Assembly (NCBI RefSeq): GCF_003425685.1
Contig: NZ_QJKM01000001.1
Location: 240,920 to 304,919, forward strand
Length of the DNA: 64,000 nucleotides
Direction of reading: 5' to 3'
Source: Rhizobium terrae
GTDB taxonomy: Bacteria > Pseudomonadota > Alphaproteobacteria > Rhizobiales > Rhizobiaceae
The notes beneath the pieces were generated by a model, which saw only the letters and a list, made by a program, of their open reading frames with translations, had not been told where the DNA came from and ran no database searches. Below, piece after piece: positions 19,444-49,644 of this stretch; the first letter of the stretch is position 1, and each line of letters starts with the position of its first letter. Made by a program: the position numbers and the translations under genes.

Positions 19444-19455
19444 ATGTATATACAT
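19444..19455. promoter_or_regulatory. HutC-type operator between hutF and hutI
   Basis: ATGTATATACAT is a perfect 12-base palindrome containing TGTATATACA, the core expected for HutC. It lies 28 bases before the hutI start and about 80 before hutF, well placed to repress both divergent units. An ATG at 19454 overlaps it and is therefore rejected as the hutI start. Confidence 0.85.
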
Positions 19456-19483
19456 GTTTCAGTATAAAGAAAGGCAAAACGCC

Positions 19484-23096: not shown

Positions 23097-24778
23097 CCAA
23101 TCCGCGTCACAATATCCGCGATGTCCGCGCGCCGCGGGGCAACGACCTCAATGCCAAGAGCTGGATGACCGAGGCGCCGCTGCGGATGCTGATGAACAAT
23201 CTCGATCCTGACGTCGCGGAAAATCCGCACGAACTGGTCGTCTACGGGGGTATCGGCCGCGCGGCGCGCACCTGGGACGATTTCGACCGTATCACTGCGG
23301 CGCTGAAGACGCTGACGGAGGAAGAGACGTTGCTGGTGCAGTCCGGCAAGCCCGTCGGCGTATTTCGGACGCACAAGGACGCACCGCGCGTGCTGATCGC
23401 CAATTCCAACCTCGTGCCGCACTGGGCGACCTGGGATCATTTCAACGAACTGGATAAGAAGGGGCTGGCCATGTACGGCCAGATGACTGCCGGCTCGTGG
23501 ATTTATATCGGCACACAGGGCATCGTGCAGGGCACCTACGAAACCTTCGTCGAGGCCGGCCGCCAGCATTATGACGGCAATCTCAGGGGCAAATGGATTT
23601 TGACCGGCGGCCTCGGCGGCATGGGTGGCGCGCAGCCGCTCGCCGCCGTCATGGCCGGCGCCTGCTGCCTCGCCGTGGAATGCGACGAGACCCGTATCGA
23701 TTTTCGTCTGCGCACCCGCTATGTCGATGAAAAGGCGAGGACGCTCGACGAGGCGCTCGCCCTGATCGAGACGTGGACGAAGGCCGGCGAGGCGAAGTCG
23801 GTCGGTCTGCTCGGCAATGCCGCCGAGATTTTCCCGGAACTGGTCAGGCGCATGAAGGCGGGCGGTCCGCGTCCCGATATCGTCACCGACCAGACCTCGG
23901 CGCATGATCCGCGCAACGGCTACCTCCCCGTCGGCTGGACGGTGGAGGAGGCGAGGGCCAAGCGCGAGAGCGACCCGAAATCGGTCGAAGCCGCCGCCCG
24001 TGCCTCGATGAAGCAACATGTGGAGGCAATGGTCGCCTTCTGGGAAGCCGGCGTGCCGACCCTCGACTACGGCAACAACATCCGCCAGGTCGCCAAGGAC
24101 GAGGGCCTCGAAAACGCCTTCGCCTTCCCGGGCTTCGTGCCCGCCTATATCCGCCCGCTCTTCTGCCGCGGCATCGGTCCCTTCCGCTGGGCTGCACTGT
24201 CGGGCGATCCCGAAGATATCTACAAGACCGACGCCAAGGTGAAGGAACTGCTGCCGGACAACAAGCACCTGCACAACTGGCTGGACATGGCGCGGGAGCG
24301 CATCTCCTTCCAGGGCCTGCCGGCGCGCATCTGCTGGGTGGGCCTGGGCGACCGCCACAAACTCGGTCTCGCCTTCAACGAAATGGTCAGGAACGGTGAG
24401 CTTTCGGCGCCAATCGTTATCGGCCGCGATCATCTGGATTCCGGTTCCGTCGCCTCGCCGAACCGCGAGACGGAGGCGATGAAGGACGGCTCCGACGCCG
24501 TTTCCGACTGGCCGCTCTTGAACGCGCTGCTCAACACCGCGTCGGGCGCCACCTGGGTCTCGCTGCATCACGGCGGCGGTGTCGGCATGGGCTTTTCCCA
24601 GCATTCCGGCATGGTCATCTGCTGCGACGGTTCGCAGGATGCAGATCGTCGTCTGGAACGGGTGCTGTGGAACGATCCGGCGACCGGCGTCATGCGCCAT
24701 GCGGATGCGGGTTATGACATCGCACTCGATTGCGCCAGGGAAAAGGAGCTTCGCCTACCAGGCATTCTCGGGAACTGA
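23093..24778 (+). CDS. hutU: urocanate hydratase
   Basis: 561-residue NAD-dependent urocanase converting urocanate to imidazolonepropionate. [25 protein letters not shown], the glycine-rich NAD segment [13 protein letters not shown], and the [19 protein letters not shown] segment with the active-site Cys are diagnostic; each is quoted only in part. Length is normal. It overlaps hutG by 4 bases and hutD by one. Confidence 0.96.
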
Positions 24779-26640: not shown

Positions 26641-27399
26641 TCAGCGGAAGTGCAAGACGACCGGTGTGCCGCCCATGTCTGCGACCTCCATCCGGAAACC
26701 GAAGATCGCCTGCAGGATCTCCGGCCGCAAAAGCTCCGCCGGAGACCCATCGGCGGCGATCCGCCCGGCCTTCATCGCAATGATACGGTCGGCATAGGCG
26801 CCAGCTTGATTGATATCATGCAGCACGATAACGACCGTCTTGCCGTTCTCATCGGCGATCCTTCGCAGCGAACGCATCAGGTCTCGGGCGAAATACATGT
26901 CGAGATTGTTGAGCGGTTCGTCGAGCAGCAGGTAGTCCGTTGCCTGGGCAAAGGCCATGGCGACTAGCGCTCGCTGCCGCTGGCCGCCCGAGAGAGTGTC
27001 GATGAAGCGGTCCGCGAGATCCGCCAGATCGAACTGCTGCAGCGACTGGTCGATCACGACGCGATCCTCCGCAGTCAGCCGCCCCCGGCTGTGCGGAAAG
27101 CGGCTGAAGCCGACAAGTTCCCGGACCCTCAAACGACTTGCCACGATCGAATCCTGCCGCAGAATGGCGATGATCCGCGCGAGATCCCGGTTCGGAGTCG
27201 TATCGACTGGAAAGCCGTCGATGGAGATCGTTCCCGACTGCAATGGCTGCAGCCGGGCGATCAGGGACAGAAGCGAGGACTTGCCTGCTCCATTCGGGCC
27301 GATCAGCGCGGTGATGCCGCCTTTGGGGATGGTCAGCGAGATGTCGTGAAGGATTTCGGCTGAACCATGCCGCAGCGAGACATTCTCGATCCGGATCAT
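26641..27399 (-). CDS. iron-siderophore ABC importer ATPase (FepC/FecE-like)
   Basis: 252 residues. Walker A GPNGAGKSS is 34-42, signature LSGGQRQRAL near 135, Walker B YLLLDEPLNNLD and switch His in VLHDINQAG. The start at 27399 overlaps the permease stop by 4 bases; longer starts would read through the permease gene. It is the last gene of the importer binding protein-permease-permease-ATPase in the petrobactin-type locus. Confidence 0.92.
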   Translation of the reverse strand: MIRIENVSLRHGSAEILHDISLTIPKGGITALIGPNGAGKSSLLSLIARLQPLQSGTISIDGFPVDTTPNRDLARIIAILRQDSIVASRLRVRELVGFSRFPHSRGRLTAEDRVVIDQSLQQFDLADLADRFIDTLSGGQRQRALVAMAFAQATDYLLLDEPLNNLDMYFARDLMRSLRRIADENGKTVVIVLHDINQAGAYADRIIAMKAGRIAADGSPAELLRPEILQAIFGFRMEVADMGGTPVVLHFR

Positions 27400-28337
27400 T
27401 TGCGGCTCCCGAGAACAAGCAGGAAAAGGAAGACGAGGCCGCCGACGAATTCGATGACGACACCGAGTGTCGAGCTGTTGCCGAAGACGTGCTGGAACAG
27501 GGTCTGGCCGCCGACGAGAATGATGATGGCCGTCGATATCGCAGCCGGTATCAGGATCGCGTGGCGCCGTGTATCGGCAAGGCGTTCGGCGAGCGCTGCC
27601 ACCAGCAGGCCCATGAAGGCAACCGGACCGACCAGCGCCGTCGAAACGGCAACGAGAGCCGAGACCAGCGCCAACAACCCGGTGACCGTTTTGGACCAAG
27701 TGACTCCAAGTCCCGTCGCCGCGTCGGCTCCGAGCGCGACGACGTCGAGGACATGCCGGGCTCGCCAGGCGATCACGGCACCCATAAGGGTCAGGACGGC
27801 GGCAAAGATGAGCAGGTCGGTGCGGACATTGTTGAAATTGGCGAAACTTGCACCTTGCGCCACGGCAAAGTCGTTCGGATCGACCAGCCGCGCCAGCAGC
27901 GAATGCAGGCTGCGAAACAGTACGCCGAAGATGATGCCGGCCAGCAGCATCAGCTCCATGTCAGTGCGGCGGCGGAGCATCGGCAACAGAAGGCCGGTCG
28001 CCAGCGCCATCAGGACCAGGACTTCGCCGCCGAACTTCAGCTGGCTATCGAGCGCCGCATAACCCAGCCCGCCGAGCATAAAGACGAGCAGCATCTGGCC
28101 GAAGAGATAAAGAGCGTCGAGGCCCATGATCGAAGGTGTCAGGATGCGGTTGTTGGTGACGGTCTGGAAGATGACCGTCGAGACGGCAATCGAGACGCTG
28201 ACCTGCAGAAGCGCGGCAAGTTTTGCGGCGCGCAGGGAGAGGACGAAGCCGATATTGCCGCGCAGGCCGATGGTCATGAAAGCGATCACGCAGGCAAGTG
28301 CTGCCGCGCCGAGACAGAGAAGACGGCGATTACACAT
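27396..28337 (-). CDS. FecCD-family permease, second subunit
   Basis: 313-residue inner-membrane protein with 8-9 hydrophobic segments and the FecCD family motif GPVAFMGLLVAALAERL near 220-235. Several features (short N-terminus, FMTIGLRGNIGFVLSLR) recall the FatC/CeuC petrobactin/anguibactin-type permeases. It overlaps its partner permease gene by 8 bases. Confidence 0.9.
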   Translation of the reverse strand: MCNRRLLCLGAAALACVIAFMTIGLRGNIGFVLSLRAAKLAALLQVSVSIAVSTVIFQTVTNNRILTPSIMGLDALYLFGQMLLVFMLGGLGYAALDSQLKFGGEVLVLMALATGLLLPMLRRRTDMELMLLAGIIFGVLFRSLHSLLARLVDPNDFAVAQGASFANFNNVRTDLLIFAAVLTLMGAVIAWRARHVLDVVALGADAATGLGVTWSKTVTGLLALVSALVAVSTALVGPVAFMGLLVAALAERLADTRRHAILIPAAISTAIIILVGGQTLFQHVFGNSSTLGVVIEFVGGLVFLFLLVLGSRK

Positions 28338-29307
28338 CGGAAGGCCGCCGGAAGAGAAGCCAGAGGAAGATCAGTCCACCGACGCAGCCCATGACGGTGC
28401 CGACCGGGACTTCGTAAGGGTGGCGGATCAGGCGGCCGAGGATGTCGCAACCCAGCACCAGGACCGCGCCGCTTGCCGCCACGGCGGGGAGCGTGCCGCG
28501 CAGGTTGTCCCCCATCAGCCGCGAGACGATGTTCGGCACGACGAGACCGACGAATGGGATGACGCCGACGATCACGACGCTGAGAGCCGAGATGACCGAG
28601 ACAATCACGAGACCGAGCTGAAGCATGCGCCGATAATCGATGCCGAGCCCGATGCTGGCGTCACGGCCGAGCGTCATGATTGTCAGACGATCGGCGATGA
28701 ACCAGGCGAAGACCACCATCAGCGCACCAAGCCACAGAAGTTCGTAACGACCTCGCAGCACGCCGGAAAAGTCGCCATTGGTCCAGATCGATAGATATTG
28801 CAGAAGGTCCGCCTGCCAGGCGACGAAGGTGACCGCCGCGCCGATCACCCCGCCATAGACGAGCCCGAAAAGCGGTACGAGAAAAGGCTGCGTGGGCGGC
28901 AGCCGATGCGCCGTCGCCAGAAAGAGGGAAGTCCCGATGAGAGCGGCGGCGCTGGCTATCAGACCTTTGGTGAGGAGATTTGCCGCCGGCCAGAGCAGGG
29001 TCACCAGAAGGATGCCGAGTTCGGCGCTCTGGGCCGTCCCCGCGGTGGAAGGCTCCACATAACGATTGCGGGCCAGCGTCTGCATGATGAGGCCGGCAAT
29101 CGCGAGGCTTGCTCCGGCGAGGATCGCCGCAAGCGTTCGCGGCAGGCGACTGACCAGGACAAGTTCGATTCCCCTTCCATCCGAGAGGACACGTCCGAAC
29201 GGCAACTCGTCGACCCCGGTAAAGAGGCTCAAAACGAACAGGATCGCGAGGACGAGGCCTGCGATCCAACCCGTTAGCGGCGATTGCTTGACGGCAGCGG
29301 TGCTCAT
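28330..29307 (-). CDS. FecCD-family permease, first subunit
   Basis: 325-residue inner-membrane protein with many hydrophobic segments and the motifs RLPRTLAAILAGASLAIAGLIMQ and VGVIPFVGLVVPNIVSRL, given in part. It resembles FatD/CeuB-type permeases. The start overlaps the binding-protein stop by 4 bases. Confidence 0.91.
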   Translation of the reverse strand: MSTAAVKQSPLTGWIAGLVLAILFVLSLFTGVDELPFGRVLSDGRGIELVLVSRLPRTLAAILAGASLAIAGLIMQTLARNRYVEPSTAGTAQSAELGILLVTLLWPAANLLTKGLIASAAALIGTSLFLATAHRLPPTQPFLVPLFGLVYGGVIGAAVTFVAWQADLLQYLSIWTNGDFSGVLRGRYELLWLGALMVVFAWFIADRLTIMTLGRDASIGLGIDYRRMLQLGLVIVSVISALSVVIVGVIPFVGLVVPNIVSRLMGDNLRGTLPAVAASGAVLVLGCDILGRLIRHPYEVPVGTVMGCVGGLIFLWLLFRRPSDV

Positions 29308-30209
29308 CTGGCTGCGGCGAAGGACTCGGCAACCGTCGCCGCCACCCGTTGCATGGACTGCACGCCGCCGGCGGCGATATAGAACTCGGCGGCCGGCAGG
29401 TAAACGACCTGCCCCTTTTTCCAGGCCGTCGTCTGGGCCACGAGTTCGTTGTCGAGTGTCGACTTTGCGCTTTGCTCGCCGGAGCCGATCGCAGCCGACC
29501 GGTCGAGCACCAGCAGCCAGTCCGGATTGGCCTGACGGATGAATTCGAAGGAAACAGCTTCGCCGTGGGTCGCCGCCTGTACGTCCGGAACCGCCGGCGG
29601 GAGGCCCAGTGCGGCATGCACCCAGCCGAAGCGCGAGCCGGGGCCATAAGCGGTCACCTTCGGGCCGTTGGTCATGATGATCAGCCCTTTGCCTTTGCCG
29701 GCCACCGCCGCCTTTGCCGCATCGATCTGCGCATCCAACTCGGAGGCAGCCTTGGCCGCCTCCTGCCGTTTGCCGAAAAGGGTGCCGTAGCTCGCCAGCC
29801 GCTCCTTGGCTTGAGCAAGCAGGTCATCGCCATCCATCGTCATGTCGATTGTCTGAGCGACCTGGCCAGCCGATTGGGCCTTGGTTGAGGATCGGCCGCC
29901 GACGATGATCAGGTCCGGCCCGAGCGCACTCAATGCTTCCAGATCGGGCTCGAAGAGATCGCCGACGATTTCCGCCCCCTGTTTGAGAGGCTCGAACTGC
30001 GGGAGATAGAGCTTTTCCGGCACGCCGGCCGGCCTGACGCCAAGCCGGTCGAGCGTATCGAGGGCCGCGATGTCGAACACGGCGACTTTGGCCGGCACTG
30101 CGGAGATCTGGACCGGCCCTCTTGCGGTGAGAATTTCCGCCGCATGGGCAAAGATCGCTGAAAAAGCAAAGGCGGCAAACGCCGCGATTATCCTGAACTT
30201 CATTGCCAT
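29304..30209 (-). CDS. siderophore-binding periplasmic protein (FatB/CeuA-like)
   Basis: 301 residues. The start MAMKFRIIAAF gives a signal peptide cleaved near AHA; AAGGA lies 9 bases before it. The family III pattern is visible: ARGPVQISAVPAKVAVFDIAALDTLDRLGV, PDLIIVGGRSSTKA and the C-terminal GGVQSMQRVAATVAESF, each shortened here. It belongs to the group that binds catecholate/carboxylate siderophores such as petrobactin and anguibactin, in keeping with the adjacent asb-like genes. Confidence 0.89.
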   Translation of the reverse strand: MAMKFRIIAAFAAFAFSAIFAHAAEILTARGPVQISAVPAKVAVFDIAALDTLDRLGVRPAGVPEKLYLPQFEPLKQGAEIVGDLFEPDLEALSALGPDLIIVGGRSSTKAQSAGQVAQTIDMTMDGDDLLAQAKERLASYGTLFGKRQEAAKAASELDAQIDAAKAAVAGKGKGLIIMTNGPKVTAYGPGSRFGWVHAALGLPPAVPDVQAATHGEAVSFEFIRQANPDWLLVLDRSAAIGSGEQSAKSTLDNELVAQTTAWKKGQVVYLPAAEFYIAAGGVQSMQRVAATVAESFAAAR

Positions 30210-30243
30210 AGTCCTGTTCCTTGGCGGGATGCCGGACCGCACC

Positions 30244-30549
30244 TCAAGCGATCCGGTCCGGCGCCTGCCATTGCAGGGCTTCCAGGTTTTCCCGGAAGGC
30301 GAAGCGAACGAGATGTCTCTCGATCACCGATTGAGTCTCGGCGAGCTGTTCTTCGTCGGCGGCTACCGCCATGATTTTCAGGCCGTCGTCGTCCGCATCG
30401 AGCGTCGCGGTGCCGCAGGAGAAGCGGCACTCGCCATGGGTCTCGGAATAGGAGACGTCGATCTTGTGCGCGAAATGCTTGCATAGTTGTACGAGATATT
30501 TCCCGCCATGTTCGGTACGCCATTCCGCAATCGACTGCACCACGTCCAT
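30244..30549 (-). CDS. DUF2218 protein
   Basis: 101-residue cytoplasmic protein of unknown function, wholly one DUF2218 domain. The motif C-x-HF-x3-H (LCKHFAHKI), a central CGTATL strand and ERHLVRFAF align well with the N-terminal part of the siderophore reductase encoded at 51500-52564. AAGGAG touches the ATG, so GTG two codons later is possible. It lies between the receptor and the binding protein of the same unit, so a role in handling or reducing the ferric siderophore is likely but unproved. Confidence 0.85.
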   Translation of the reverse strand: MDVVQSIAEWRTEHGGKYLVQLCKHFAHKIDVSYSETHGECRFSCGTATLDADDDGLKIMAVAADEEQLAETQSVIERHLVRFAFRENLEALQWQAPDRIA

Positions 30550-30565
30550 CTCCTTCCCATGCTTT

Positions 30566-32920
30566 TCAGAACGTTGCCTTGGCGGTCAGCAGGAAGCTTC
30601 GGCCAGGCTCGAAGAGCGGTGTGACGGTACCGAATTCCTGGCCGTAGGTGGCACGTTCGGAATAGGTCTCGTCGAAGACGTTCTGGACTTCCGCGCGCAA
30701 GGTGAAATTGGGCAGCGCTTCCGGCTTCCATTCGGCGAAGATGTTGACCACTTCGTAAGCCTTGTAGGGCGGCGAACCGGTCGTGACGTGATCGTATTCC
30801 GGGGCGATCTCGATATCGCCACCGATCGTCAGCCCCCAGTCGACGAAGGTGTGGGCGGCCGTGAGGGTGACGATGTCGCCGACCGGCGTCGCCAGATAGT
30901 TGCCGGTATCGGAATCGGCAGGCGCGCCGTTGATATCGACACGGATATGAGCGTATTTGACCTTCACATAACCGCTTGCCCATTCATAGCCGGCACCGAT
31001 CTCGAAGCCTTGAGAGACAAGATCACGGGCGCGGATGGCTGCCAGGGCACCGGGGAAGGGAGCCGGGGTCGTGGCGTTGTAGGCATAAAGAGGAACGCGC
31101 GCATCATCGATATCCGTGCGGAAGATGCTGCCCTCGGCGGTGAAGCCCTCATATTCCGCCTCCAGACCGATCATATAGTTGTTGGCCGTCACGACTTCCG
31201 GACCATTCGCCCCATAGGTCCAAGCGGGGTTCATGATGAAGTTTTCGGCCAGCGGAATGCCGGCCCAGACATGCGAGAAACCAGCCTTGGCGGTCAGGAA
31301 ATCGGTAAGGTCATACTCGCCGGAGACGTTGGCGCTGAGGCCGCCATTGTCGAACTCCTGCCCGTTGATGCCCGTGAACCATTGATGGTCCGCGCGGGCG
31401 CCGAACGAAAGCCGGGTTCGTTCCCAAGGCTCCAGCCTCGCCTGAGCATAGAGGCCGACATTGCTCGCCTTCTCGCGCCCGGAGTCGGAAAAGCCGAGGA
31501 CCGTGCTCGACGCGTCGAGCGCGGCGCGATCCCGGTAGAAATCGACGCCCGCGACGATATTTCCGATGTCGAACGAAAACTTGTTCTCGAACTTTCCGTT
31601 GAAGCTTTCCGTCTCCCCGGTCGATGGATAGGTGGTGGGAATTCCGGTCGGGCACCCCCGCGGGCAGGCGTAGCCGAGCGTCTCGACTTCGGTGCGGCTG
31701 TAAGAAAGCATGATCGTCGGGTCCCACCAGCCTTCCGGCGAGGTGTCCGTGTAGGTGAAGGTCGTGTTCTGCCGGTCGATCTTCAGGTCGCGGACGCGCG
31801 GTTCCCAGAACGGACGACCGGCGATGAAACCAATATTCGGGCGGAACGGCCGCGTGGCGTCGTCGTGCGAGCGATCGTAGCTGATCTCGAACCGATCGCC
31901 GCTTTCGGCCTCGTAGGCAAGCTTGCCGAGGCCACTGAGAATATTCGTTTCCGTACCCGGCACCTCGCTGCCATTGCCGCCGACGAAGTCGTCGCCCTTG
32001 CCGAAGTTGAAGAAGCCGAGGAATTCGAAACCCTCGCGCCTGCCATAGGCGCTGAGCCCGGTCGTTACCGTGTCGCTGTTGAAATTGTAGGTCGAGGTGA
32101 CGAACCCGCCGAACGACTGCCCGGGCGCCAGCAGGTCGATCGCATCCTTGGTCTCGTAGTTGATCGAGCCTGCCAGCGCACCGGGACCGGCATCGGCAGG
32201 GGCGATGCCGGCATCGACATCCACCGCCTTCAGGAGGCTGGGATCGATGAGGTTGGTGGCGTTGTGATGGAAAACCTTGTTGTTCTGGCGCGCACCGTCG
32301 ATGCTGACGGCAAGGTTGGTTTCCTCGATGCCGTGAACATAGACCTTCTGGGACATGGGAAGCGAACTGCCGACCTGCACACCCGGCTCCTCGCGGAAGA
32401 CGTCCGCCAGGCTGGTCGGGTTGAGGCGTTCGAGCTGCTCCGGCCCGATGACGGTTTCGGCGACGCCGCCCTCCGCGCCGGGCTGGCCCTGCAGAACGAT
32501 CGGCTGGAGCGTGGTGGCGTCCTGTGCCGGGAGATTGCCGGATGCGTTCCCCGCAGTGCCGATGACGGCAGTGCCATTGACGATCCGGTAGCCGATACCG
32601 GTTCCGGCGAGCATGCGTGCGAGCGCCTGATCCGGCGTGAAATTGCCGCTGACCGCCTGAGCCGTGACGCCCTGCGAGGTGGAAGCCGCAAGCGTGACTT
32701 GAAGGCCGGACTGCCGGCCAAAGGCATTAAGGGCCGACGCGAGCGGCTGAGCCGGTATACTGAAATTGCGGGTGGCCGTCTGCGCCTGGGCGGGAGCGGC
32801 AAGAATAGGGCTCACAACGATCGCGGCGGTGGCGACCGCCGCCGTTAAATTCCAAGCAAAAGCGTTTCTCCTGCCGCTTGCCTTTACCCCACGCGCTACT
32901 CCACTTCCCGGCAAGATCAT
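30566..32920 (-). CDS. TonB-dependent receptor with N-terminal STN signalling domain
   Basis: 784-residue outer-membrane receptor. The ATG at 32920 has AGGAGA 10 bases before it; a farther start at 33007 is the alternative. A signal sequence ends near APAQA, an STN domain (about 50-121: FSIPAQPLASALNAFGRQSG, later ARMLAGTG) contacts the FecR-type anti-sigma factor, the plug follows (about 137-270) and the barrel ends in a terminal Phe. The plug (VYVHGIEETNLAVSIDGARQ) looks more like the haem/haemoglobin receptor class than FecA or FhuA, yet the context is a siderophore locus. Probable receptor for the locally made siderophore, regulated by the FecI/FecR pair upstream. Confidence 0.88.
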   Translation of the reverse strand: MILPGSGVARGVKASGRRNAFAWNLTAAVATAAIVVSPILAAPAQAQTATRNFSIPAQPLASALNAFGRQSGLQVTLAASTSQGVTAQAVSGNFTPDQALARMLAGTGIGYRIVNGTAVIGTAGNASGNLPAQDATTLQPIVLQGQPGAEGGVAETVIGPEQLERLNPTSLADVFREEPGVQVGSSLPMSQKVYVHGIEETNLAVSIDGARQNNKVFHHNATNLIDPSLLKAVDVDAGIAPADAGPGALAGSINYETKDAIDLLAPGQSFGGFVTSTYNFNSDTVTTGLSAYGRREGFEFLGFFNFGKGDDFVGGNGSEVPGTETNILSGLGKLAYEAESGDRFEISYDRSHDDATRPFRPNIGFIAGRPFWEPRVRDLKIDRQNTTFTYTDTSPEGWWDPTIMLSYSRTEVETLGYACPRGCPTGIPTTYPSTGETESFNGKFENKFSFDIGNIVAGVDFYRDRAALDASSTVLGFSDSGREKASNVGLYAQARLEPWERTRLSFGARADHQWFTGINGQEFDNGGLSANVSGEYDLTDFLTAKAGFSHVWAGIPLAENFIMNPAWTYGANGPEVVTANNYMIGLEAEYEGFTAEGSIFRTDIDDARVPLYAYNATTPAPFPGALAAIRARDLVSQGFEIGAGYEWASGYVKVKYAHIRVDINGAPADSDTGNYLATPVGDIVTLTAAHTFVDWGLTIGGDIEIAPEYDHVTTGSPPYKAYEVVNIFAEWKPEALPNFTLRAEVQNVFDETYSERATYGQEFGTVTPLFEPGRSFLLTAKATF

Positions 32921-33040
32921 CCGCCCCGTCTCCTGTATGCTTTTGTCGCAAAGGCCCCCCGGCCTGCGTTTCAGGGTAGAGACGACCATGCGCGGCGCTT
33001 TTTTCATCCAGCAGCGAAAATTTTCAGGAAATTTTAACGC

Positions 33041-34015
33041 CTAGAAAAGTGCGAGCACCCGCAGGTAGGGCGAGATGCGGTGTACCTTGCCGCCGTAAGG
33101 CTGGACGAGCGCTTCGAGTGCCCGATCGGGATCGGAAAGACTGTAGAGACCGGTCACACGTCGATTGGCGAGCTCGCTGCTCGGGACGCTGATCCAGGCG
33201 GCGTGATAGCGCTGCAGTTCCTCGACGACCGAGGCAATCGTCACATCGTTGACGAATAACCGGCCGCTCCGCCAGGCGGCCATATCCTCGGGCGCCAGCT
33301 TTCTGCGCGATATCTGCCCGCTGCCGCGGTTGATGCTGACGGAATCGCCGGGCGAAAGCTCGAATGCATGCGACGTTCCATCGACGCTGAGCCCGACAAG
33401 GCCCCGGACGAGTTCAACGGTCGTATCATCGGGCTTCATGTGCACGTCGAATGCCGTGCCGAGGACGGTCACCTTCACGCCGCCGGCGGTAACAACGAAG
33501 GGGCGCGACGGATCGCGCTTCACATCGAAGAAGGCCTCGCCCGCAAGCAGCTCCACGTGCCGCATGCCGTTCTCGAACTCGGTGTCGATTGCGCTTGCAG
33601 GCCCAAGTTCGACCACACTGCCGTCTTCAAGGGTAATCTTGCGGAGTTCGGCCGTTACCGTTCGGAAATCTGCCCGATATGCGAGGAGAAGGGAGGGGCC
33701 GGCCAACGCCAGCACAAGACAGGCCGCCAATGCCAGCGCTGTACCCACACTCCAGACGCGCCGCCGTCGCCGGACGGCAAGCATTTTCATTTGCGTCGTC
33801 GATCGCCAGAGGTCCTCGTGGACGGGCGTCGTCTCACCCATCAGCTCCCAGGTCTTGCAGGCCTTCAGCCAGGCTTCCCGATGCGCCGGCGAGCGGTTGA
33901 GCCACAGGCCGAATTCCCGTTCGACGACCACCATCCGGGATGATTCGCGCAGGCGCAGGAACCAGTCCATCGCCTCTTCCAGAATGCTTTCGTCCGTTTC
34001 GTCTTGCCCAGCCAA
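33041..34015 (-). CDS. fecR: FecR-type anti-sigma/signal transducer
   Basis: 324 residues. An N-terminal DUF4880 segment (AMDWFLRLRESS, W at HREAWLKACKTWELM) binds the sigma factor in the cytoplasm, one membrane helix lies near 90-112, and the FecR domain is periplasmic (LEDGSVVELGPASAI, FDVKRDPSRPFVV). The C-terminal part (VIASVVEELQRYH and VTGLYSLSDPDRALEAL) is the STN-like region that meets the receptor. Start appears to be TTG. It lies between the sigma factor and receptor genes in the canonical fecIRA order. Confidence 0.9.
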   Translation of the reverse strand: MAGQDETDESILEEAMDWFLRLRESSRMVVVEREFGLWLNRSPAHREAWLKACKTWELMGETTPVHEDLWRSTTQMKMLAVRRRRRVWSVGTALALAACLVLALAGPSLLLAYRADFRTVTAELRKITLEDGSVVELGPASAIDTEFENGMRHVELLAGEAFFDVKRDPSRPFVVTAGGVKVTVLGTAFDVHMKPDDTTVELVRGLVGLSVDGTSHAFELSPGDSVSINRGSGQISRRKLAPEDMAAWRSGRLFVNDVTIASVVEELQRYHAAWISVPSSELANRRVTGLYSLSDPDRALEALVQPYGGKVHRISPYLRVLALF

Positions 34016-34114
34016 GTCTTCAACCTGCTTCGGATGTCCCGCCGCTTCTATCCGAAATTCCCCTTCTTGCGTAGGAACGATTGACGGGCCGGAATTTTTC
34101 GCCTGCCGCAGCGC

Positions 34115-34630
34115 TCAGGCATTTTTCCTGTCGAGCGCCGTTGCAATCCTGACCATGGCGGTTCGTACGTGACGATGGGCGGTGGCAACCGAGATGCCGA
34201 GATGTTCGGCGACGCCCTCCAGCGTATGGCCGCCGAAGCGGTACATTTCCACCGCGATACGGATCTCGCTCGGAAGCGCATCGAGCACGGCAGCCGCGAT
34301 GCGGACTTCATCGCAGAACATCACCGTCTGCTCGGGATTGTCGGCCGGCTGCGGAACGGTCCAGAAGGGCGCATCCTCCGTATGGCCCCGATGCTCGATC
34401 TTGCGGCGTTTCAGCACGTCGAAGGAGAGGTTCCGGACGATGCGATAGAGATAGGCAAGGCCCTGGCGTGCCGATTCGCCGGGCGCCTTTCCGGGTGCGA
34501 ACCGCAGATAGGCTTCCTGAACGATGTCCTCCGCCGCCTCCCGCGAGCCGAGAATCCGTGCCGCATAATCGACCAGCGCCGAGCGGTGGGTCAGATAGAG
34601 ACTGTGCCGGTTTTCCGCTTCTAGGGTCAT
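34115..34630 (-). CDS. fecI: ECF sigma factor, FecI type
   Basis: 171 residues with sigma region 2 (DYAARILGSREAAEDIVQEAYLRF) and region 4 (LEGVAEHLGISVATAHRHV), each given in part. It directs RNA polymerase to the receptor promoter when FecR signals. The strand order fecI-fecR-receptor is intact. A TGA-N6-TAGTCAT motif lies 133-148 bases upstream, so fecI itself may be under iron control. Confidence 0.9.
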   Translation of the reverse strand: MTLEAENRHSLYLTHRSALVDYAARILGSREAAEDIVQEAYLRFAPGKAPGESARQGLAYLYRIVRNLSFDVLKRRKIEHRGHTEDAPFWTVPQPADNPEQTVMFCDEVRIAAAVLDALPSEIRIAVEMYRFGGHTLEGVAEHLGISVATAHRHVRTAMVRIATALDRKNA

Positions 34631-34762
34631 ATGATCGAGGGGGCGAAACTTGTCTCATGGACCGGGCGGCCAGAAGCATTGACGCCTCCCGGCTGAACGG
34701 TCGATTTGAATTGCACGTCCGAATGGCTCATCATGCCGGACGGATATCTATCATTAAAAAGT

Positions 34763-34778
34763 TGATTGCAATAGTCAT
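34763..34778. promoter_or_regulatory. TGA-N6-TAGTCAT motif upstream of fecI
   Basis: TGATTGCAATAGTCAT. Thirteen of 16 bases agree with the copy at 44036-44051, and TGA and TAGTCAT are shared with 58307-58322. The region 34631-34867 holds no gene. The bases just after it (AGTCATATTATGA) also resemble the kdgD operator, so the motif assignment is not unique. Confidence 0.45.
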
Positions 34779-34867
34779 ATTATGATGACGGCGGCAAGGA
34801 CATCGACCCTTGCCGCCTCGCGCATTCCTTTTGCGTCGCGTTCGCCCACATCGTCGGGCGAACGGCC

Positions 34868-36166
34868 TTATCCGGCGGCCCTTCTCGGCAGCAGGATCGC
34901 CGGCAGGTTTTGATCGCACCAGAGGCCAAAAACCTCGCCGAGCCGGTCCTTGATCTTTCGTTCCAGCCGGTCGGATTCCTCCAGCCGGTCGAAGACCGCA
35001 GCGGCCTGCTCCCCGTCACCCGTCTGGCTGAGTTTCATGCAGGCGTAGTGGAGGTTCTTGAGAGACTGGAAAAGTGCTTCGATCTCCTCGCACCAGATCT
35101 CGAATTCACCGGCGGGCAGCTTCAGCGCCCGCCAGAAAAAGGCGAAGCCGTGCTCATAGGCATATTTGCGGATGGTGATGACAGGCAGTTCGCGCACCGC
35201 CGACGCGAGTTCCGCCAGTGTCAAGCCGTCGCGGCCGTGGAGATGGGCGTTCACGATGCCGCGGACCGCATCGACCAGCGGGTTCGTGTCCGCCACGAAA
35301 CATGCCTCGAAATAGGCTTTCAGGTCTTGCGGTTCCGGATTGCGGGCAAGGGCGTTGTCGAAAACGTAACCGCCGCCGACCGTCGGCTGCATGATCGCAT
35401 GGATGACCTTTTCCCGCTCGATCTCGCCCTCCCAGCGATAGTCCGGATCATGCACGAACCATTTTTCCGGATCGGCCGTCTTCTGCAGCATGAGATAATG
35501 GGGGAAGGGGTTCTGGTTGAACTTGTTCTCGCGCTCGGGCAGATGGAACATGTCGAGCATGACCATGACCGAGCCGGTTTCCGGACGGTTTTCGACGAGG
35601 TCGATCAACGTTGAAAGGTTTTCCGCCTTCGACCTTGCCGGATCGTACCATTCGCGGATGGGAACCCGGTAGAGCTGCGTGAACCAGTCGCGGAAGAAAT
35701 CCTGGCTGATCTCGGGCGAGTGATAGAGAAGCTCGAAACGATCGCTGACAGTGAACTTTGCGTCCCAGACGCCGAAATAGAACGGCCGCTGGTCCAGCCC
35801 CTGCCGCTTCAGGCCGTCGCAGACGCAACTTACGAAGCAATGTACCTTGATGTCGTAATAGGCCTCCCCATGGACCCCTTCGTCGGTCGTGCCGCCGGTC
35901 ATGGCGAAGGACGGAACGGCGGATTTCGGAATGTAGAGCCCGACCAGATCCGCGACGGTTTCGAGTTCCTGGCGGGCGATCGCCTCTTCCGGCATGGCCA
36001 GCCCGTATTCCAGCTCCAGATTGAGGAGGATCTGCAGGATCAGAACGGAATCCAGGTAGAGGTCCTCGTTGAGCCGCGCTTCCGGGGCAAAAGCCTGCAT
36101 GTGCGGATGGGTCATGTGTTCGGAAAGCACGATGCGGACAGAGTCCAGAATTTCGTCGCGGGTCAT
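34868..36166 (-). CDS. petrobactin-type AsbD-AsbE fusion: acyl/aryl carrier protein joined to an AsbE-like domain
   Basis: 432 residues. Residues 1-82 are a carrier protein: LNEDLYLDSVLILQILL puts the phosphopantetheine-bearing Ser at 40. Residues from about 102 to the end form one domain resembling AsbE of petrobactin synthesis (HCFVSCVCDGLKRQ, WFTQLYRVPIREWYD, WFVHDPDYRWEG). In Bacillus these are two proteins, AsbD and AsbE, that load and transfer 3,4-dihydroxybenzoyl groups; here one polypeptide carries both. The ATG at 36166 overlaps the ligase stop by 4 bases. Assignment rests on sequence pattern and operon context, not on an alignment. Confidence 0.82.
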   Translation of the reverse strand: MTRDEILDSVRIVLSEHMTHPHMQAFAPEARLNEDLYLDSVLILQILLNLELEYGLAMPEEAIARQELETVADLVGLYIPKSAVPSFAMTGGTTDEGVHGEAYYDIKVHCFVSCVCDGLKRQGLDQRPFYFGVWDAKFTVSDRFELLYHSPEISQDFFRDWFTQLYRVPIREWYDPARSKAENLSTLIDLVENRPETGSVMVMLDMFHLPERENKFNQNPFPHYLMLQKTADPEKWFVHDPDYRWEGEIEREKVIHAIMQPTVGGGYVFDNALARNPEPQDLKAYFEACFVADTNPLVDAVRGIVNAHLHGRDGLTLAELASAVRELPVITIRKYAYEHGFAFFWRALKLPAGEFEIWCEEIEALFQSLKNLHYACMKLSQTGDGEQAAAVFDRLEESDRLERKIKDRLGEVFGLWCDQNLPAILLPRRAAG

Positions 36167-37443
36167 GAGGCAACTCCTGCTGCCGGTGTGCCGAATTCGC
36201 CTGCCGCATGGCGGGCCGCCACATCGCGGCGACTGATCTTGCCATTCCCCTGCCGCGGGATCTCCGCGACCTCGATCATTTCCATTGGCAGCTGGTGGCT
36301 CGCGAGATGGCGGCTGCACCATTCGCGGACGTCGTTGGGCGTCACCGGCAAGCCGGCGCTATAGAGAAGCGCGACCCGCTCGCCCGCGAAACGATCGGCC
36401 TTGCGGAAGGCGACAGCATCGGTGATTGCCGGCATGGCCATCACCGCATCCTCTACATCGCCCGGATAGACGTTGAGGCCGGAGACATTGATCATGTCGT
36501 CCATCCGCGACAGGAAAACCAGCATGCCGTCCTTTCGCCGGTAACCGAGGTCGCGGGTATGGATCAGAGAGCCGCCTTCGGCCTTCACGACGATCTCTCC
36601 GGCGTCTTCGGCGCTTGTTCCCGTGGATGCCCGCAGGTGGGGCAGGATAAAGCCCATGTCAGCGGCGGCGCGCACATCCGGATTGATGGCGATGCAGCCG
36701 GATTCGGAGCAGCCGTATTGCTGGAAGAGACGGTCGCTCCGGGCGCGGATCTGCGTAAACCAGGGATCGGGCAGCAGGGTGCCGGAGGTCATGGCGGCGT
36801 AAAGTCTTTCGCCTTCGGGCAAAAGGCGGGAAAGGGTGTGAAGGATGGCCGGAGAGGAATAGAGCAGCGGCCGATCGGTCTCGCGCAGCACCTTCAGGAG
36901 GTATTTCGGGTTCGCCGTCTCGACGATGACAGGGACTTGCCCGCGTTTCAGGGCAACCAGAATGCCGCAGATCAGCCCATAGGAATGAGTGGTCGGGCAG
37001 GCGATGACCGGTGTCATGTCTTGGGGCTCGCGGAAGGTTGCGACATAACTTTCGACCTCGCGGTCGATCTCGTCCCAAGGCCGGGCGATACATTTCGCGG
37101 CCCCCGTCGTTCCCGAGCTCATATGCAAAAGCCGGCCGGGCGCTGGCGCCTCTTCCCGAACATCGAGCACTTCGGCGGTCAGGCTGTTGTAGAAAAGCCG
37201 GTCGCAGTTTGCCGTCATCGCGAGCCTGCGGGCGGCGGGATAGGGCGTGCCGGGGTGGATGGGCAGGACGCTCGCTCCAGCCTTGCGGATGGCAAAAAAG
37301 AAGGAGAGCCACTGTGTCGTATCGGTAAAGCACACCGCATAACGGCCACTATCGTGGCCGCTGAGGCCAATCTGTGCGGCGATACGCTCGGATGCCTGGT
37401 CGAAATAGGCGCGGTCGTAAAGCTTGCCGTCGATGCGGATCAT
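36163..37443 (-). CDS. asbC: AMP-dependent aryl-acid ligase, AsbC-like
   Basis: 426-residue adenylating enzyme expected to activate 3,4-dihydroxybenzoate (or another aryl acid) and load it on the carrier domain encoded next. The A3 motif SSGTTGAAK is 109-117; later motifs YGCSESGCI, the adenylate-binding TRDLGYRRKDG and the C-terminal Lys in QGNGKISRRDV are present. It is shorter than stand-alone EntE/DhbE ligases (about 540 residues), as is AsbC. It overlaps both neighbours by 4 bases. The exact aryl acid is not decided by sequence. Confidence 0.85.
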   Translation of the reverse strand: MIRIDGKLYDRAYFDQASERIAAQIGLSGHDSGRYAVCFTDTTQWLSFFFAIRKAGASVLPIHPGTPYPAARRLAMTANCDRLFYNSLTAEVLDVREEAPAPGRLLHMSSGTTGAAKCIARPWDEIDREVESYVATFREPQDMTPVIACPTTHSYGLICGILVALKRGQVPVIVETANPKYLLKVLRETDRPLLYSSPAILHTLSRLLPEGERLYAAMTSGTLLPDPWFTQIRARSDRLFQQYGCSESGCIAINPDVRAAADMGFILPHLRASTGTSAEDAGEIVVKAEGGSLIHTRDLGYRRKDGMLVFLSRMDDMINVSGLNVYPGDVEDAVMAMPAITDAVAFRKADRFAGERVALLYSAGLPVTPNDVREWCSRHLASHQLPMEMIEVAEIPRQGNGKISRRDVAARHAAGEFGTPAAGVAS

Positions 37444-39176
37444 GGCTTTCTCCTCCGTTCGGATGTTCTCGTGGTCAGGGCGTTCGGAATCTCGTGGTGA
37501 TATTCCGGCTTCAGCGCGAGCAGTTTTCGGGTGATGAGGGATTCGGTCAGAATGTGCGGGCGGTCGTACCCAAGCTGTTCATGGCGATGCAGCACGCCAT
37601 GCTCCTCCGCATAGGAGGCCAGCAATTTCTCCACACGCTGCCAGAAACGAAATTCCGGAAGTTCATAGCAAACATCGAAGAGATGCGAGATTTCGCTCAG
37701 GTTATAGACGAAGAGCGTATCCATCACGAGTTCGCGCAGCGAATCGAGATTGTCCGTCCAGTAATACTGGTCCGGTTCGGCATTGCGGTAGCGTGGGTCG
37801 AGTGCAGGGAAATCGGGCGCTTTTTCAGGATCGCGCAGGAAACCGGGAGAGAATTCGACGCTCTCGTGGAAGTCGCGCAGGATGAGCCGCACCGGCCAGC
37901 CATCCCGATGTACGAGCAGCATGTTCTGGCCATGCGCCTCAACGGCGATCCCATGCCGGACGAGCAGGTGCCAGACGGGCAGGATGGCCACTTCGAGGAG
38001 CCTGTTCATCCACGGCATCAGGCCGAAACGCGTGATCCACCCGTCCGCAAACGGCTTTCCGTCATGCTCGATCATCATCAGGGCGTTGAACGGAATGATC
38101 GCTTCGCCGGGACGGAGCGACGCCTCGGCGTTCTCGCGCCAGATCGCTCCGATCTCGCCCGCCAGTGGTCCGTCGCGATCGGCGATGATTCCGGCATATT
38201 CCTGCAGGACGGTCAGCGGATATTCCGCGTCGAACAGCGGATCGTTCCTGACGATACCCGCGATCCAGGCGGAGAGCGCGGGGGCGGTGCAGACGGAATG
38301 CGGCTCCAGCGTGCGCTGCGAAGACGTGTTGACGATGTTGAGCGGCAGCTTGATGCTCGCCGCAAGCGGGCGATCGATGTTGAACAGCGAACGTACCGAC
38401 TGGCTTGCCACATAACGATCGCCAAACAAACCGAGACAATAGCCCTCGCCGGCGGCGATCCACTCTGCAAGCGCGCTCTCCTGGAGGGTCTTCCATTGCC
38501 ACGGATGCAGCGGCACAAGTCCGAAGTCCTCGTCGGAAAGACCAAGTTCGCGCCGCTTGCCCTCGATCTCCGCCCAGGCCTCGGCACCGAGTTCGGCAAA
38601 CCAGAAGGCCTCTTCGTTCTGCGGGAGCGTCTGGCTAAGATGCTTCCGGGCGATCAGCAGCCAGACCAGCCGGAAAGGCCGTCCGGCTTCCGGGCCGTAG
38701 GCCGCGTGATCCTGAAACGAAAAGCCGAGCCTTGCCCGGTAGCAGGGATGATAGGGATGGCCTTCATCCAGCGCCCCTTCCAACTCGACCAGCGACATGA
38801 CGCGGCGATCCCGCGCCGGAAGATGAAGGTGGTTCCAATCCGAAAACGCGATCGTCTGCTCCAGTTCGCGAAGCAGCCTGCCGCGCGTGATGCCGCTTCC
38901 GGGCAGGGACGGTACGATCACTCCGAGCGAGGCTGGCTCCCAATGACCATGCCGCGTCAGAACCTCCACCGAACCCGGCGCGATGTGGAAACGTCCGAAT
39001 GCGCCGGTCGTGCCGTGGCATCGAAAGTCACTTCCGCCGAGCGACCATGTCCATCGCGTCGTGCCCTCGTCGATGCTTTCGTGCGCCTTGATGATGCCCT
39101 CGAAGAGCAGCGCTGCCACCAACTGGCGGATCACCCGGTCGCGTGGCTTGCCGACGGCTTCAAGAGGCAATGGCAT
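37440..39176 (-). CDS. asbB: NRPS-independent siderophore synthetase, AsbB-like (IucA/IucC family)
   Basis: 578 residues. The NIS synthetase landmarks HPYHPCYRAR (140-149), LHPWQWK, TLEPHSV and EAHGQNMLL are present, followed by the FhuF-like C-terminal domain (GVLHRHEQ). It adenylates a citrate carboxylate and condenses it with an amine. In petrobactin synthesis AsbB makes the second citrate-spermidine bond. The ATG at 39176 lies inside the 3' end of the asbA-like gene (17-base overlap). Confidence 0.88.
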   Translation of the reverse strand: MPLPLEAVGKPRDRVIRQLVAALLFEGIIKAHESIDEGTTRWTWSLGGSDFRCHGTTGAFGRFHIAPGSVEVLTRHGHWEPASLGVIVPSLPGSGITRGRLLRELEQTIAFSDWNHLHLPARDRRVMSLVELEGALDEGHPYHPCYRARLGFSFQDHAAYGPEAGRPFRLVWLLIARKHLSQTLPQNEEAFWFAELGAEAWAEIEGKRRELGLSDEDFGLVPLHPWQWKTLQESALAEWIAAGEGYCLGLFGDRYVASQSVRSLFNIDRPLAASIKLPLNIVNTSSQRTLEPHSVCTAPALSAWIAGIVRNDPLFDAEYPLTVLQEYAGIIADRDGPLAGEIGAIWRENAEASLRPGEAIIPFNALMMIEHDGKPFADGWITRFGLMPWMNRLLEVAILPVWHLLVRHGIAVEAHGQNMLLVHRDGWPVRLILRDFHESVEFSPGFLRDPEKAPDFPALDPRYRNAEPDQYYWTDNLDSLRELVMDTLFVYNLSEISHLFDVCYELPEFRFWQRVEKLLASYAEEHGVLHRHEQLGYDRPHILTESLITRKLLALKPEYHHEIPNALTTRTSERRRKP

Positions 39177-40953
39177 GGCCGGTCCTCGGTGAAGCGAGCG
39201 CGACCGGAACCCGGAGAGGGTTGGCGATCGGCCGGTAGAGGGAATGCGGGCCGCTGGACTGCAGCTCGTCCACGTCGAAAAGGCGCGTCGTGAGATTGGC
39301 CTTGGAGGTAATCGTCGGCAGGTCGAGGACATGCCGGACGAATTCCCTGCCGACACCGGACATCGTTTGCGCGCAGTCTTCGAGATGAGTCCTCAATGCC
39401 CGCAGAAGCGTGCCTTCGTCGCAAAGACCGTCGTGCCCCATCCGGCTGATGACCGAAAAAACCTGGTTGACGATCAAGTAATAGGCGAACCGGTCCCGGA
39501 TTTCGGCATCCGCGAAATAAAGCGAAGCGATCGTTTCCGTTTCCGGCACATGGTGACTGAGCATGCGGCGATGGCGTTCCGAAAGATAGAAACCCTGGTT
39601 GTCGCGGTAGTAACCGCCACTCGGATATCCGGAGGAAATGTCGAGAAGGCTGTTCTGCTGATGGGCTTCGAGCGCTACCCCATGCTCATCATAAAGACGG
39701 ATCAGCGGTTCGACCGCACAGGCGAGATAAAGCCGGAACCAGACGAGTGCGGTGTGGTGGATTCCGTCGCCGCTTGCCGCCGAGAGCGTCCGCACGATCT
39801 TCTCCAGCCGCGAGAGCCCGCCGGGAAGCGGATCGGCAGTGAGGGCAGCGATGGCCGCCACGCCGCGTGCCCGCTCTCCCTGGAAAGGGTTTTCCCGAAA
39901 GATGACTTCGAAGCCGCTTTCCTCCCGTCCGGGCAGGTCCAGCGTGATGTAAGCAGGATCGTGGATGATATGGAAATTTCCGGACCGCTTCGCAAAACCG
40001 ATCCGGTTCATCAGCTTCGCCATCGCCACGCCGGCTTCGAGTTCCTGGCGGCGGTTGACGCGGAGAGAATTGGTGATCCGTACCGGAAGCGAAAATTTCA
40101 GCATCCAATCCGATTGGGCGCTGTAGACGGTGCGGACGGACGACGTCGCCGTGAACCACCGGCCTGCCGGCCCGATATGGCGCAGGTCGCCGCTCTGCTG
40201 CAGCTTCTGGATATCCGCATCGAGCAGAAGCGCCTCGGCCTGAAGCGGATGCATGGGAATGAGGCGCTCGTCTGATCCGATCCCGGGGGCATCGCCTGCT
40301 CCGCCGGCCAGGGCGTGCGCCATTTCCTCCGCACGCATTGCACCTGCAGAAGCCTGGCGCACCAAACCGGCTTTGACGGCGAAGTAATGCAGCCGGAATT
40401 GTCCTCGCAGCTCCGGGGCATATCGCTCCTGTTGCCAGAACGTCATGCCCTGTCTGCTTTTCGGAGTCGGGTGTTGCCAATGGCCGAAGACGAGCGACTG
40501 TTCCGTCTCGATGAAATGCCCCTCATCGCGAGGTTTTCGTTCCGCCTTTTCGATATAGACCGTCATTTGCTGGTAGCTGTCGAGCACCCGCATCAGAAGC
40601 TCGAGTTCGTACGTGCGCAGAACATCGAGGCGACCGTCGTCCATCTGGCGATAGGCTTCGTGGATGAGCATATGCAGGCCCGCCAGGGGTTCGACCGACC
40701 GCCAGGCGGCATCGGACGCAGTCCGCGCCCACAATTGCCCGAAATGCTGCGGTCCGCAGATCGACGCGGAAAGGATTTCCGCGCGCAGGAACGCCTGCTG
40801 CCGCGGCAGGGACCATTCAATCGCATCGGACGGACCCGCCGCGGTTCGATGCACGACCGGCGCCCCCGGATTGATCTCGCGCAGATAACAATTGGCGAAA
40901 CTCTTGAACGTCGCCGCCTCTGCCGCCTGCCTTGACGATTGCATCATTTCCAT
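39160..40953 (-). CDS. asbA: NRPS-independent siderophore synthetase, AsbA-like (IucA/IucC family)
   Basis: 597 residues. FxxCYLRE near the N-terminus, GHWQHPTPKSRQG (about 158-170), MHPLQAE (234-240), TATSSVRT and EAHQQNSLL are NIS synthetase motifs and their wording is closest to AsbA, which joins citrate to spermidine. SKANLTTRLFDVDEL lies near the C-terminus. Several Met codons are possible starts; 40953 (MEMMQSS) gives an N-terminus of normal length, and 40971 or 40947 are alternatives. It is the first gene of the four-gene operon. Confidence 0.9.
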   Translation of the reverse strand: MEMMQSSRQAAEAATFKSFANCYLREINPGAPVVHRTAAGPSDAIEWSLPRQQAFLRAEILSASICGPQHFGQLWARTASDAAWRSVEPLAGLHMLIHEAYRQMDDGRLDVLRTYELELLMRVLDSYQQMTVYIEKAERKPRDEGHFIETEQSLVFGHWQHPTPKSRQGMTFWQQERYAPELRGQFRLHYFAVKAGLVRQASAGAMRAEEMAHALAGGAGDAPGIGSDERLIPMHPLQAEALLLDADIQKLQQSGDLRHIGPAGRWFTATSSVRTVYSAQSDWMLKFSLPVRITNSLRVNRRQELEAGVAMAKLMNRIGFAKRSGNFHIIHDPAYITLDLPGREESGFEVIFRENPFQGERARGVAAIAALTADPLPGGLSRLEKIVRTLSAASGDGIHHTALVWFRLYLACAVEPLIRLYDEHGVALEAHQQNSLLDISSGYPSGGYYRDNQGFYLSERHRRMLSHHVPETETIASLYFADAEIRDRFAYYLIVNQVFSVISRMGHDGLCDEGTLLRALRTHLEDCAQTMSGVGREFVRHVLDLPTITSKANLTTRLFDVDELQSSGPHSLYRPIANPLRVPVALASPRTGHAIAS

Positions 40954-40971
40954 CCCTGTTGCGCATGGCAA

Positions 40972-43887: not shown

Positions 43888-44105
43888 TGAAGTGCTCCCG
43901 AAGGCAAGAGCTTATCGACGACAATTAACCCGCAACGAGCGGATTTGTTCCATGTGTCGGTGTACCGCCGCGGACGGTATTAAGAGGGACGTTTTAAGCC
44001 TATTCACCGATCGGGTTGTGATCGTAAATAAAACATGATTAATATAGTCATGTTATTTCGGGTTTGCGGGCACTGTGACGAACTTGAGAATGCTGCCGGA
44101 GAAAA
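43888..44105. other. divergent intergenic region with inverted repeat
   Basis: A/T-rich stretch between the DUF2231 and AraC genes. It contains the 23-bp inverted repeat described at 44032-44054 and no reading frame of note. Confidence 0.6.
44032..44054. promoter_or_regulatory. inverted repeat AACATGA-N9-TCATGTT with TGA-N6-TAGTCAT motif
   Basis: Perfect 7-base arms 9 bases apart. The internal sequence 44036-44051, TGATTAATATAGTCAT, matches the motif before fecI and that before the NitT/nnrS operon. It lies 52 bases before the AraC start and 145 before the divergent DUF2231 gene. Confidence 0.55.
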
Positions 44106-45077: not shown

Positions 45078-45080
45078 CCG

Positions 45081-45118
45081 AAAAAGTCCCACCCGCCGTC
45101 GCGCGCGTCGGGTGGGAC
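45081..45118 (-). terminator. rho-independent terminator of the FhuA-type receptor gene
   Basis: GTCCCACCCG (45086-45095) pairs with CGGGTGGGAC (45109-45118), a perfect 10-bp stem. On the minus strand five T follow (AAAAA at 45081-45085). It lies between convergent genes and may also slow AraC transcripts. Confidence 0.9.
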
Positions 45119-45125
45119 AGGCTTG

Positions 45126-49642: not shown

Positions 49643-49644
49643 CA

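Follow-up and report, generated by a model that had tools for sequence, protein, structure and literature searches.

Background

In siderophores of the petrobactin type, citrate bears two polyamine arms that each end in 3,4-dihydroxybenzoate (protocatechuate), the compound that AsbF forms from 3-dehydroshikimate. The present analysis concerns a petrobactin-type locus at positions 26641-40953, minus strand, of a 64,000-nucleotide stretch of Rhizobium terrae (assembly GCF_003425685.1, contig NZ_QJKM01000001.1, positions 240,920 to 304,919; the whole stretch is hereafter called the window), in which asbF is absent. In Sinorhizobium fredii, Asb gene families under FecI/FecR and RirA control have been studied, with siderophore detected by the chrome azurol S (CAS) assay (PMC8822346). 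Petrobactin-type clusters are already known from other rhizobia, and the view of an earlier note on this DNA that such a cluster would be unexpected there is out of date in light of the S. fredii work and of 164 relatives confirmed in a contig scan.

The window contains the same gene families as S. fredii, with a RirA box at fecI in both. Relative to the locus of S. fredii USDA 205 (L021), identity was 69-78% for AsbA to AsbC and the AsbD-AsbE fusion, 67-72% for the binding protein, permeases, and ATPase, 61% for the receptor, 60% for FecI, 55% for the DUF2218 protein, and 54% for FecR. The gene order differs, however, since the asb genes follow the receptor gene in S. fredii and precede fecI in the window, and asbF is missing from the latter. 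The rhodopetrobactin cluster of Rhodopseudomonas palustris and the mll cluster of Methylobacterium extorquens AM1 resemble the window in the AsbD-AsbE fusion, DUF2218, the sigma/anti-sigma pair, and the TonB receptor, but they also include asbF and a GNAT acetyltransferase (PMC11317620), neither of which was found in the window. The same twelve genes in the same order, at 72-93% identity, occur in asbF-less loci of Neorhizobium galegae, N. vignae, N. tomejilense, Xaviernesmea oryzae, and Rhizobium populisoli (L001, L007-L011, L014, L015). The combination of asbAB with asbF has been called diagnostic (PMC8776838). Among the open-licence papers listed by searches on petrobactin, no title or abstract opening describes asbF-less clusters, and no study of the Neorhizobium, Xaviernesmea, or R. 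populisoli loci was found by the same means.

Gene content and integrity of the cluster

Twelve minus-strand genes were present as open reading frames (ORFs) of 101 to 813 codons, and their products were assigned to fitting families by Pfam and NCBIfam profile searches. The biosynthetic genes are as follows.

39160..40953, minus strand: asbA-like nonribosomal-peptide-synthetase-independent siderophore (NIS) synthetase (IucA_IucC 1.9e-54, FhuF 9.3e-38)
37440..39179, minus strand: asbB-like NIS synthetase, start inferred from relatives, overlapping asbA
36163..37443, minus strand: asbC-like aryl adenylating ligase (NF006167 6.7e-165, 549 bits, cut-off 513)
34868..36166, minus strand: asbD-asbE fusion, comprising an aryl carrier domain (EDLYLDS motif) and a DUF6005 domain, start inferred from match positions and relatives

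The asbA ORF opens at 40971 (TTG), and an ATG start was placed at 40953, which fits the end of the locus in the earlier note. The gene order given there, from asbA through fecI, fecR, the receptor, and DUF2218 to the importer ATPase, was confirmed by the ORFs and families. AsbB matched PDB 3to3, ‘Petrobactin biosynthesis protein AsbB’, with an E-value of 2.7e-102 (next family 2.5e-50), and the AsbE part matched DUF6005 with an E-value of 1.3e-148; these two values rule out chance. For the AsbD part, the match to the AsbD model of NCBIfam (8.5e-19) fell short of the model's cut-off. The nearest solved structures of AsbA were aerobactin synthase IucA (1.2e-45) and then AcsD (4e-35), that of AsbC was gramicidin synthase, and NF006167, whose cut-off the AsbC ORF exceeds, carries only the name ‘acyl-CoA synthetase’. 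AsbA and AsbC are called Asb because of their 69% and 78% identity, the latter over 426 residues, to the USDA 205 locus (AsbB, 70%) and because of the gene order. Comparison of the proteins with Asb sequences therefore came out as expected for AsbB, whereas AsbA and AsbC are nearer to other proteins among solved structures. The claim of the earlier note that petrobactin-type genes are accompanied here by a dedicated FecI/FecR system and importer is nevertheless supported by the families, the AsbB structure match, and the S. fredii identity.

Both NIS synthetases, the AsbC ligase, the AsbD carrier (by a match under the model cut-off), and AsbE (DUF6005) were found, and the AsbF 3-dehydroshikimate dehydratase was not; the cluster is therefore classified as a variant and not as a canonical petrobactin-type member. 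In alignments of 85-88 rows, the window departed from columns conserved in at least 97% of rows at 0 of 133 positions in AsbA, 1 of 92 in AsbB, 0 of 126 in AsbC, and 1 of 92 in AsbDE. Since the strongly conserved columns are nearly all retained, the asb genes look intact and functional.

Absence of asbF

The earlier note overlooked the absence of asbF from this genome. In relatives with the same layout, asbF lies between asbDE and fecI, as in Rhizobium sp. CC-CFT758 (L006) and in L012, L013, L028, L031, and L034-L037. The corresponding 237 bp of the window (34631..34867, minus strand) lack asbF and contain two strong hairpins followed by the fecI promoter (fold -45.7 kcal/mol, z -4.31). The hairpins, which are probably terminators, were located at 34781-34867 (z -4.3) and have a counterpart at 18484-18600 of L001 (z -6.5); z was -1.4 in the asbF-less L014 and -0.4 in L012, the only asbF-positive locus folded in this way. 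A replacement gene for asbF within the locus was rejected, as none lies between asbDE and fecI in the window, and the ORFs listed for 25 asbF-less loci revealed no obvious common replacement.

The search for asbF was extended to the source genome (6.97 Mb, 78 contigs, 99.96% complete) using Pararhizobium qamdonense AsbF, which itself matches the AsbF structure 3dx5 at 1.1e-79, and no match was found at 1e-3. A scan of genome contigs yielded the 164 confirmed relatives, and the 80 best of them make up the set of named loci; by title, most of these 80 come from Rhizobiaceae and further Hyphomicrobiales, and some from Azospirillum. Within this set asbF accompanies 58 loci and is lacking in 22, which are scattered over lineages. 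Genome searches for asbF, QuiC, and PobA covered 50 of the 80 named loci, namely all 22 without asbF and 28 of the 58 with it, hand-picked for spread. As a control, the same AsbF query at 1e-6 recovered asbF in 28/28 asbF-positive genomes and 0/22 asbF-less genomes; for L073, whose contig ends 58 bases after asbDE, the absence rests on this genome-wide search. The siderophore cluster is genuine and looks intact; it belongs to a known kind, and its form lacking asbF turns up repeatedly, in several lineages. The suggestion ‘perhaps a new variant’ holds through the missing asbF, a ground that the earlier note lacked, while no sign of a different product was seen.

DUF6005 was found in 29 of the 297 genomes of the family that were examined. 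Within the genus it occurs in 17 of 57 genomes, with asbF adjacent in 7 and not adjacent in 10, counts that refer to adjacency alone because these loci extend about 1.5 kb past asbDE. In two members of the genus that do have asbF, the frame of asbDE seems to be broken (L035, L174; L175 and L176). Separately, three genomes from two other genera of the family carry distant DUF6005/AsbC pairs (37-40% and 49-52%) with no adjacent asbF (L114-L116).

Proposed pathway and source of the aryl acid

Since the genome lacks asbF, another source of the aryl acid is required. The preferred reading, to which we assign a probability of about 0.6, is that the locus is an intact, iron-regulated petrobactin-type synthesis and import cluster whose aryl group is derived from aromatic catabolism. 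From the genes and conserved columns described here we infer its activities, pathway link, product, and regulation as follows. By analogy with S. fredii, RirA would repress fecI when iron is ample, and on iron shortage FecI, freed from FecR, would drive the receptor, asb, and importer genes. By homology with known Asb chemistry, AsbC would load 3,4-dihydroxybenzoate onto the AsbDE carrier domain, AsbE would couple the aryl group to a polyamine, and the arms would be attached to citrate by AsbA and AsbB. The aryl acid would be protocatechuate, most likely made from 3-dehydroshikimate by QuiC and from 4-hydroxybenzoate by PobA, or else taken up. Its supply from catabolism is put forward as a testable proposal and not as a result. 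If the proposal is true, plant-aromatic breakdown and iron acquisition, which are usually considered separately in rhizobia, would be linked. Any search that demands asbF, such as the rule of PMC8776838 or the AsbABCDEF count of PMC8822346, would then overlook a substantial fraction of such loci, 22 of the 80 named.

A two-domain 3-dehydroshikimate dehydratase of the QuiC type (629 aa) is encoded on the same contig as the window, adjoining shikimate dehydrogenase and TRAP transporter genes. It matched PDB 5hmq, which is Pseudomonas putida QuiC1 (PMC7442255), at 1.4e-179 and NF042435 at 3.8e-204 (680 bits, cut-off 1200), and all 10 of the QsuB active-site residues given in PMC7442255 recur in it at identical position numbers. 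PobA is also present in the genome (2.7e-201, over the cut-off). All 22 asbF-less genomes have QuiC or PobA, with full-length QuiC in 18 and PobA in 21. QuiC was found in 5/5 asbF-less Methylobacterium genomes versus 0/2 asbF-positive Methylobacterium/Methylorubrum genomes searched, a contrast that is suggestive only.

Two candidate sources of the polyamine are encoded, homospermidine synthase (PDB 4plp, 1.9e-242) and a carboxynorspermidine-type (carboxyspermidine) route, the latter by a decarboxylase over its cut-off (3.4e-127) and a dehydrogenase below its own. The GNAT of the rhodopetrobactin/methylolanthanin type, for which polyamine acylation has been proposed, had no significant match in the window, where the search for it was made, and an unacylated product would therefore be expected. 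Relatives of the GNAT from L071 and L072, presumed to be of the rhodopetrobactin type, were found in 8/117 loci, all of them Methylobacterium, Methylorubrum, or Rhodopseudomonas.

Were a different aryl acid loaded, for example 4-hydroxybenzoate to give a methylolanthanin-like product, AsbF would not be needed, in keeping with its absence from this genome. In M. extorquens AM1, the product of the related mll cluster is a 4-hydroxybenzoate compound even though an asbF homologue is present (PMC11317620); on the other hand, a closely similar cluster of M. extorquens PA1 leads to a 3,4-dihydroxybenzoate compound (PMC13251462). Apart from residue 6, near the N-terminus, AsbC has no column that distinguishes the loci lacking asbF from those with it (85% within each group). 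This uniformity argues against a new aryl acid, although a mixed or subtle change could escape the comparison. The genome has no match to a UbiC-family chorismate lyase, the model for which does find its target in the Escherichia coli control, and the window has no GNAT of the Methylobacterium/Rhodopseudomonas type. We consider a changed aryl acid quite improbable. A lanthanophore function was rejected on the UbiC and GNAT results and on a search for lanthanide methanol dehydrogenase that gave no match above the TIGR03075 cut-off, which no control genome exceeded either.

The same 3,4-dihydroxybenzoate could also be made by an unrelated, dedicated 3-dehydroshikimate dehydratase that is encoded at another site of the genome and has gone unrecognised, with ordinary petrobactin as the product. 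Dehydratases of several classes exist, one of them membrane-associated and structurally distinct (PMC9324987); yet no gene occupies the place of asbF in the locus, and QuiC can in principle supply the activity. The probability of such an enzyme is judged to be low.

Several observations weigh against derivation of the aryl group from catabolism and against the reading as a whole. The solved-structure matches of AsbA and AsbC to non-Asb proteins lower confidence in it. QuiC was also found in 18/28 asbF-positive genomes, plus one split copy, and PobA in 22/28, with either in 24/28. The enrichment of these enzymes in asbF-less genomes was not significant (Fisher 0.34 or 0.22 for QuiC, 0.12 for PobA and also for either enzyme), with the QuiC of G333, which is split, scored both as present and as absent, and that of G299 as absent. 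For the comparison with asbF on the tree, which covered the 47 of the 50 genomes whose loci have a full AsbA and AsbB, just 5 independent pairs are available. Full QuiC is lacking in three of the 22 asbF-less genomes (G306, G309, G312), and G299 has only fragments at contig ends. QuiC is, moreover, common in rhizobia (312 plasmid records at 1e-100). No fecI-like RirA box was detected at quiC or pobA, where the best matrix scores were 4.6 and 0.4, compared with 47.8 at fecI; the supply of the aryl acid would therefore not be induced by lack of iron. Protocatechuate may also be consumed by degradation, and catabolic dehydratases have a higher Km for 3-dehydroshikimate than AsbF, though they are faster (PMC9324987). 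QuiC as a lineage-specific compensation for asbF was set aside, being widespread and without statistical support. Iron control of quiC or pobA was likewise rejected on the matrix scores, with the proviso that a divergent box could escape the matrix; in its bare form, TGA-N9-TCA is found 11 times within the 16 kb around quiC and never around pobA.

The lack of a fecI-like box at either catabolic gene, together with the genome-wide absence of asbF, would also fit an incomplete pathway in a strain that mainly imports siderophores or uses the 3,4-dihydroxybenzoate of its neighbours, its asb genes nearing loss. For a decaying pathway, however, asbABCDE is almost free of departures at strongly conserved columns, and the lack of an adjacent asbF in 10 of the 17 DUF6005-bearing members of the genus is persistent. 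An incomplete pathway is accordingly regarded as improbable. If instead QuiC and PobA supply the aryl group, as we propose, that supply would follow aromatic catabolism and not iron.

Phylogeny of asbF presence and absence

A locus tree was built with FastTree from 85 of 88 loci, L040, L041, and L059 being left out since no full AsbA or AsbB was extracted from them. The presence or absence of asbF requires 5 changes on this tree, equal to the number forced by supported branches. Loci without asbF fall in Methylobacterium, in Rhodopseudomonas infernalis, in a Peteryoungia/Rhizobium group, and in a Neorhizobium-Xaviernesmea group, and the long branches include two of them (L071 and L039). A single asbF-less clade within the Neorhizobium-Xaviernesmea group was rejected (approximately unbiased (AU) test, p 0.0003, on a 16-row subset of the 85), which implies that asbF was lost twice or more, or else lost once and regained once. 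The AsbF proteins of L012, L013, and L035 cluster with those of Ensifer/Pararhizobium (support 91), giving no clear pointer to regain. The contig of the window also carries repC, which suggests a repABC plasmid or chromid, and in N. galegae VafX2 the cluster is located on plasmid pNgVX.

It is tentatively suggested that several plant-associated lineages independently dropped asbF and feed petrobactin from plant-aromatic catabolism (quinate, shikimate, 4-hydroxybenzoate), such that iron scavenging would depend on root-derived carbon in place of an iron-controlled precursor gene. This broader scenario is rather unlikely on the present evidence.

Regulatory and import genes

The remaining genes of the locus and the putative regulatory site are listed below.

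34763-34777, minus strand: RirA-type box TGA-N9-TCA in the fecI promoter (matrix score 47.8, the best in the window; next 28.7)
34115..34630, minus strand: fecI-like extracytoplasmic function (ECF) sigma factor (Sigma70_r2 3.9e-9, Sigma70_r4_2 7.6e-8)
33041..34015, minus strand: fecR-like anti-sigma factor/regulator (FecR 3.5e-21, DUF4880 6.8e-9)
30566..33007, minus strand: TonB-dependent receptor with STN signalling domain (STN 2.4e-10, Plug 1.2e-16, barrel 1.8e-29)
30244..30549, minus strand: DUF2218 protein (DUF2218 8.6e-28)
29304..30242, minus strand: FatB-like periplasmic siderophore-binding protein (Peripla_BP_2 9.5e-26)
28330..29307, minus strand: FecCD-type permease (FecCD 7e-65)
27396..28337, minus strand: FecCD-type permease (FecCD 1.9e-43)
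26641..27399, minus strand: ABC transporter ATPase (ABC_tran 3.2e-31)

The TGA-N9-TCA motif given for RirA in PMC8822346 is thus present in the fecI promoter as a putative site, placing the locus in the candidate RirA regulon. Because the bare pattern is frequent (26 occurrences in the 64-kb window), weight is placed on the conservation and promoter position of the fecI box; boxes of this type were present in 17/18 intergenic stretches, the window counted. The scoring matrix was built from fecI promoters, including that of the window, and divergent boxes could escape it. Two weaker RirA-like boxes were observed elsewhere in the window, at 44036-44050 (score 28.7), upstream of an AraC gene, and at 58307-58321 (score 18.2), at the start of an NMT1/ABC transporter/NnrS block.

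FecI, FecR, and an STN receptor, the components of FecI/FecR cell-surface signalling, are all present, so that sensing of the siderophore in this manner, as proposed in the earlier note, is plausible; against it, deletion of the receptor in an S. fredii rirA mutant lowered asbA transcription only slightly (PMC8822346). The best NCBIfam match of the receptor was a heme/hemoglobin receptor subfamily, below the cut-off, and that of the binding protein, which is 72% identical to its S. fredii USDA 205 counterpart, was SstD (8.9e-31, also below the cut-off). The ATPase ORF opens at 27699; its start was inferred from relatives, and the FecE-type match begins at ORF residue 101.

DUF2218 and neighbouring loci

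DUF2218 was found in 56 of the 80 named loci, at the extent of the stretch examined, and a role in regulation or transport has been suggested (PMC11317620). Its predicted structure (predicted local distance difference test (pLDDT) score 90) had a sole match at E < 0.001, PA4090 of Pseudomonas aeruginosa (2jpi), which gives it no function. At 51500-52564 of the window, DUF2218 is fused to a siderophore-interacting FAD-binding protein (SIP), and this one fusion hints at a possible role of DUF2218 in the release of iron from the siderophore.

The fusion lies in a second siderophore uptake locus (44106-53577) that also contains an AraC regulator, a TonB siderophore receptor (45126-47402, minus strand) nearest to hydroxamate receptors, a binding protein, two FecCD permeases, an ATPase, and a TetR regulator. 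A siderophore-binding protein close to EitA (62424-63446; 543 bits, cut-off 640) is perhaps part of a third importer. The siderophore cluster is adjoined by histidine utilisation genes (hutF, hutH, hutG, hutU) at 18008-24778.

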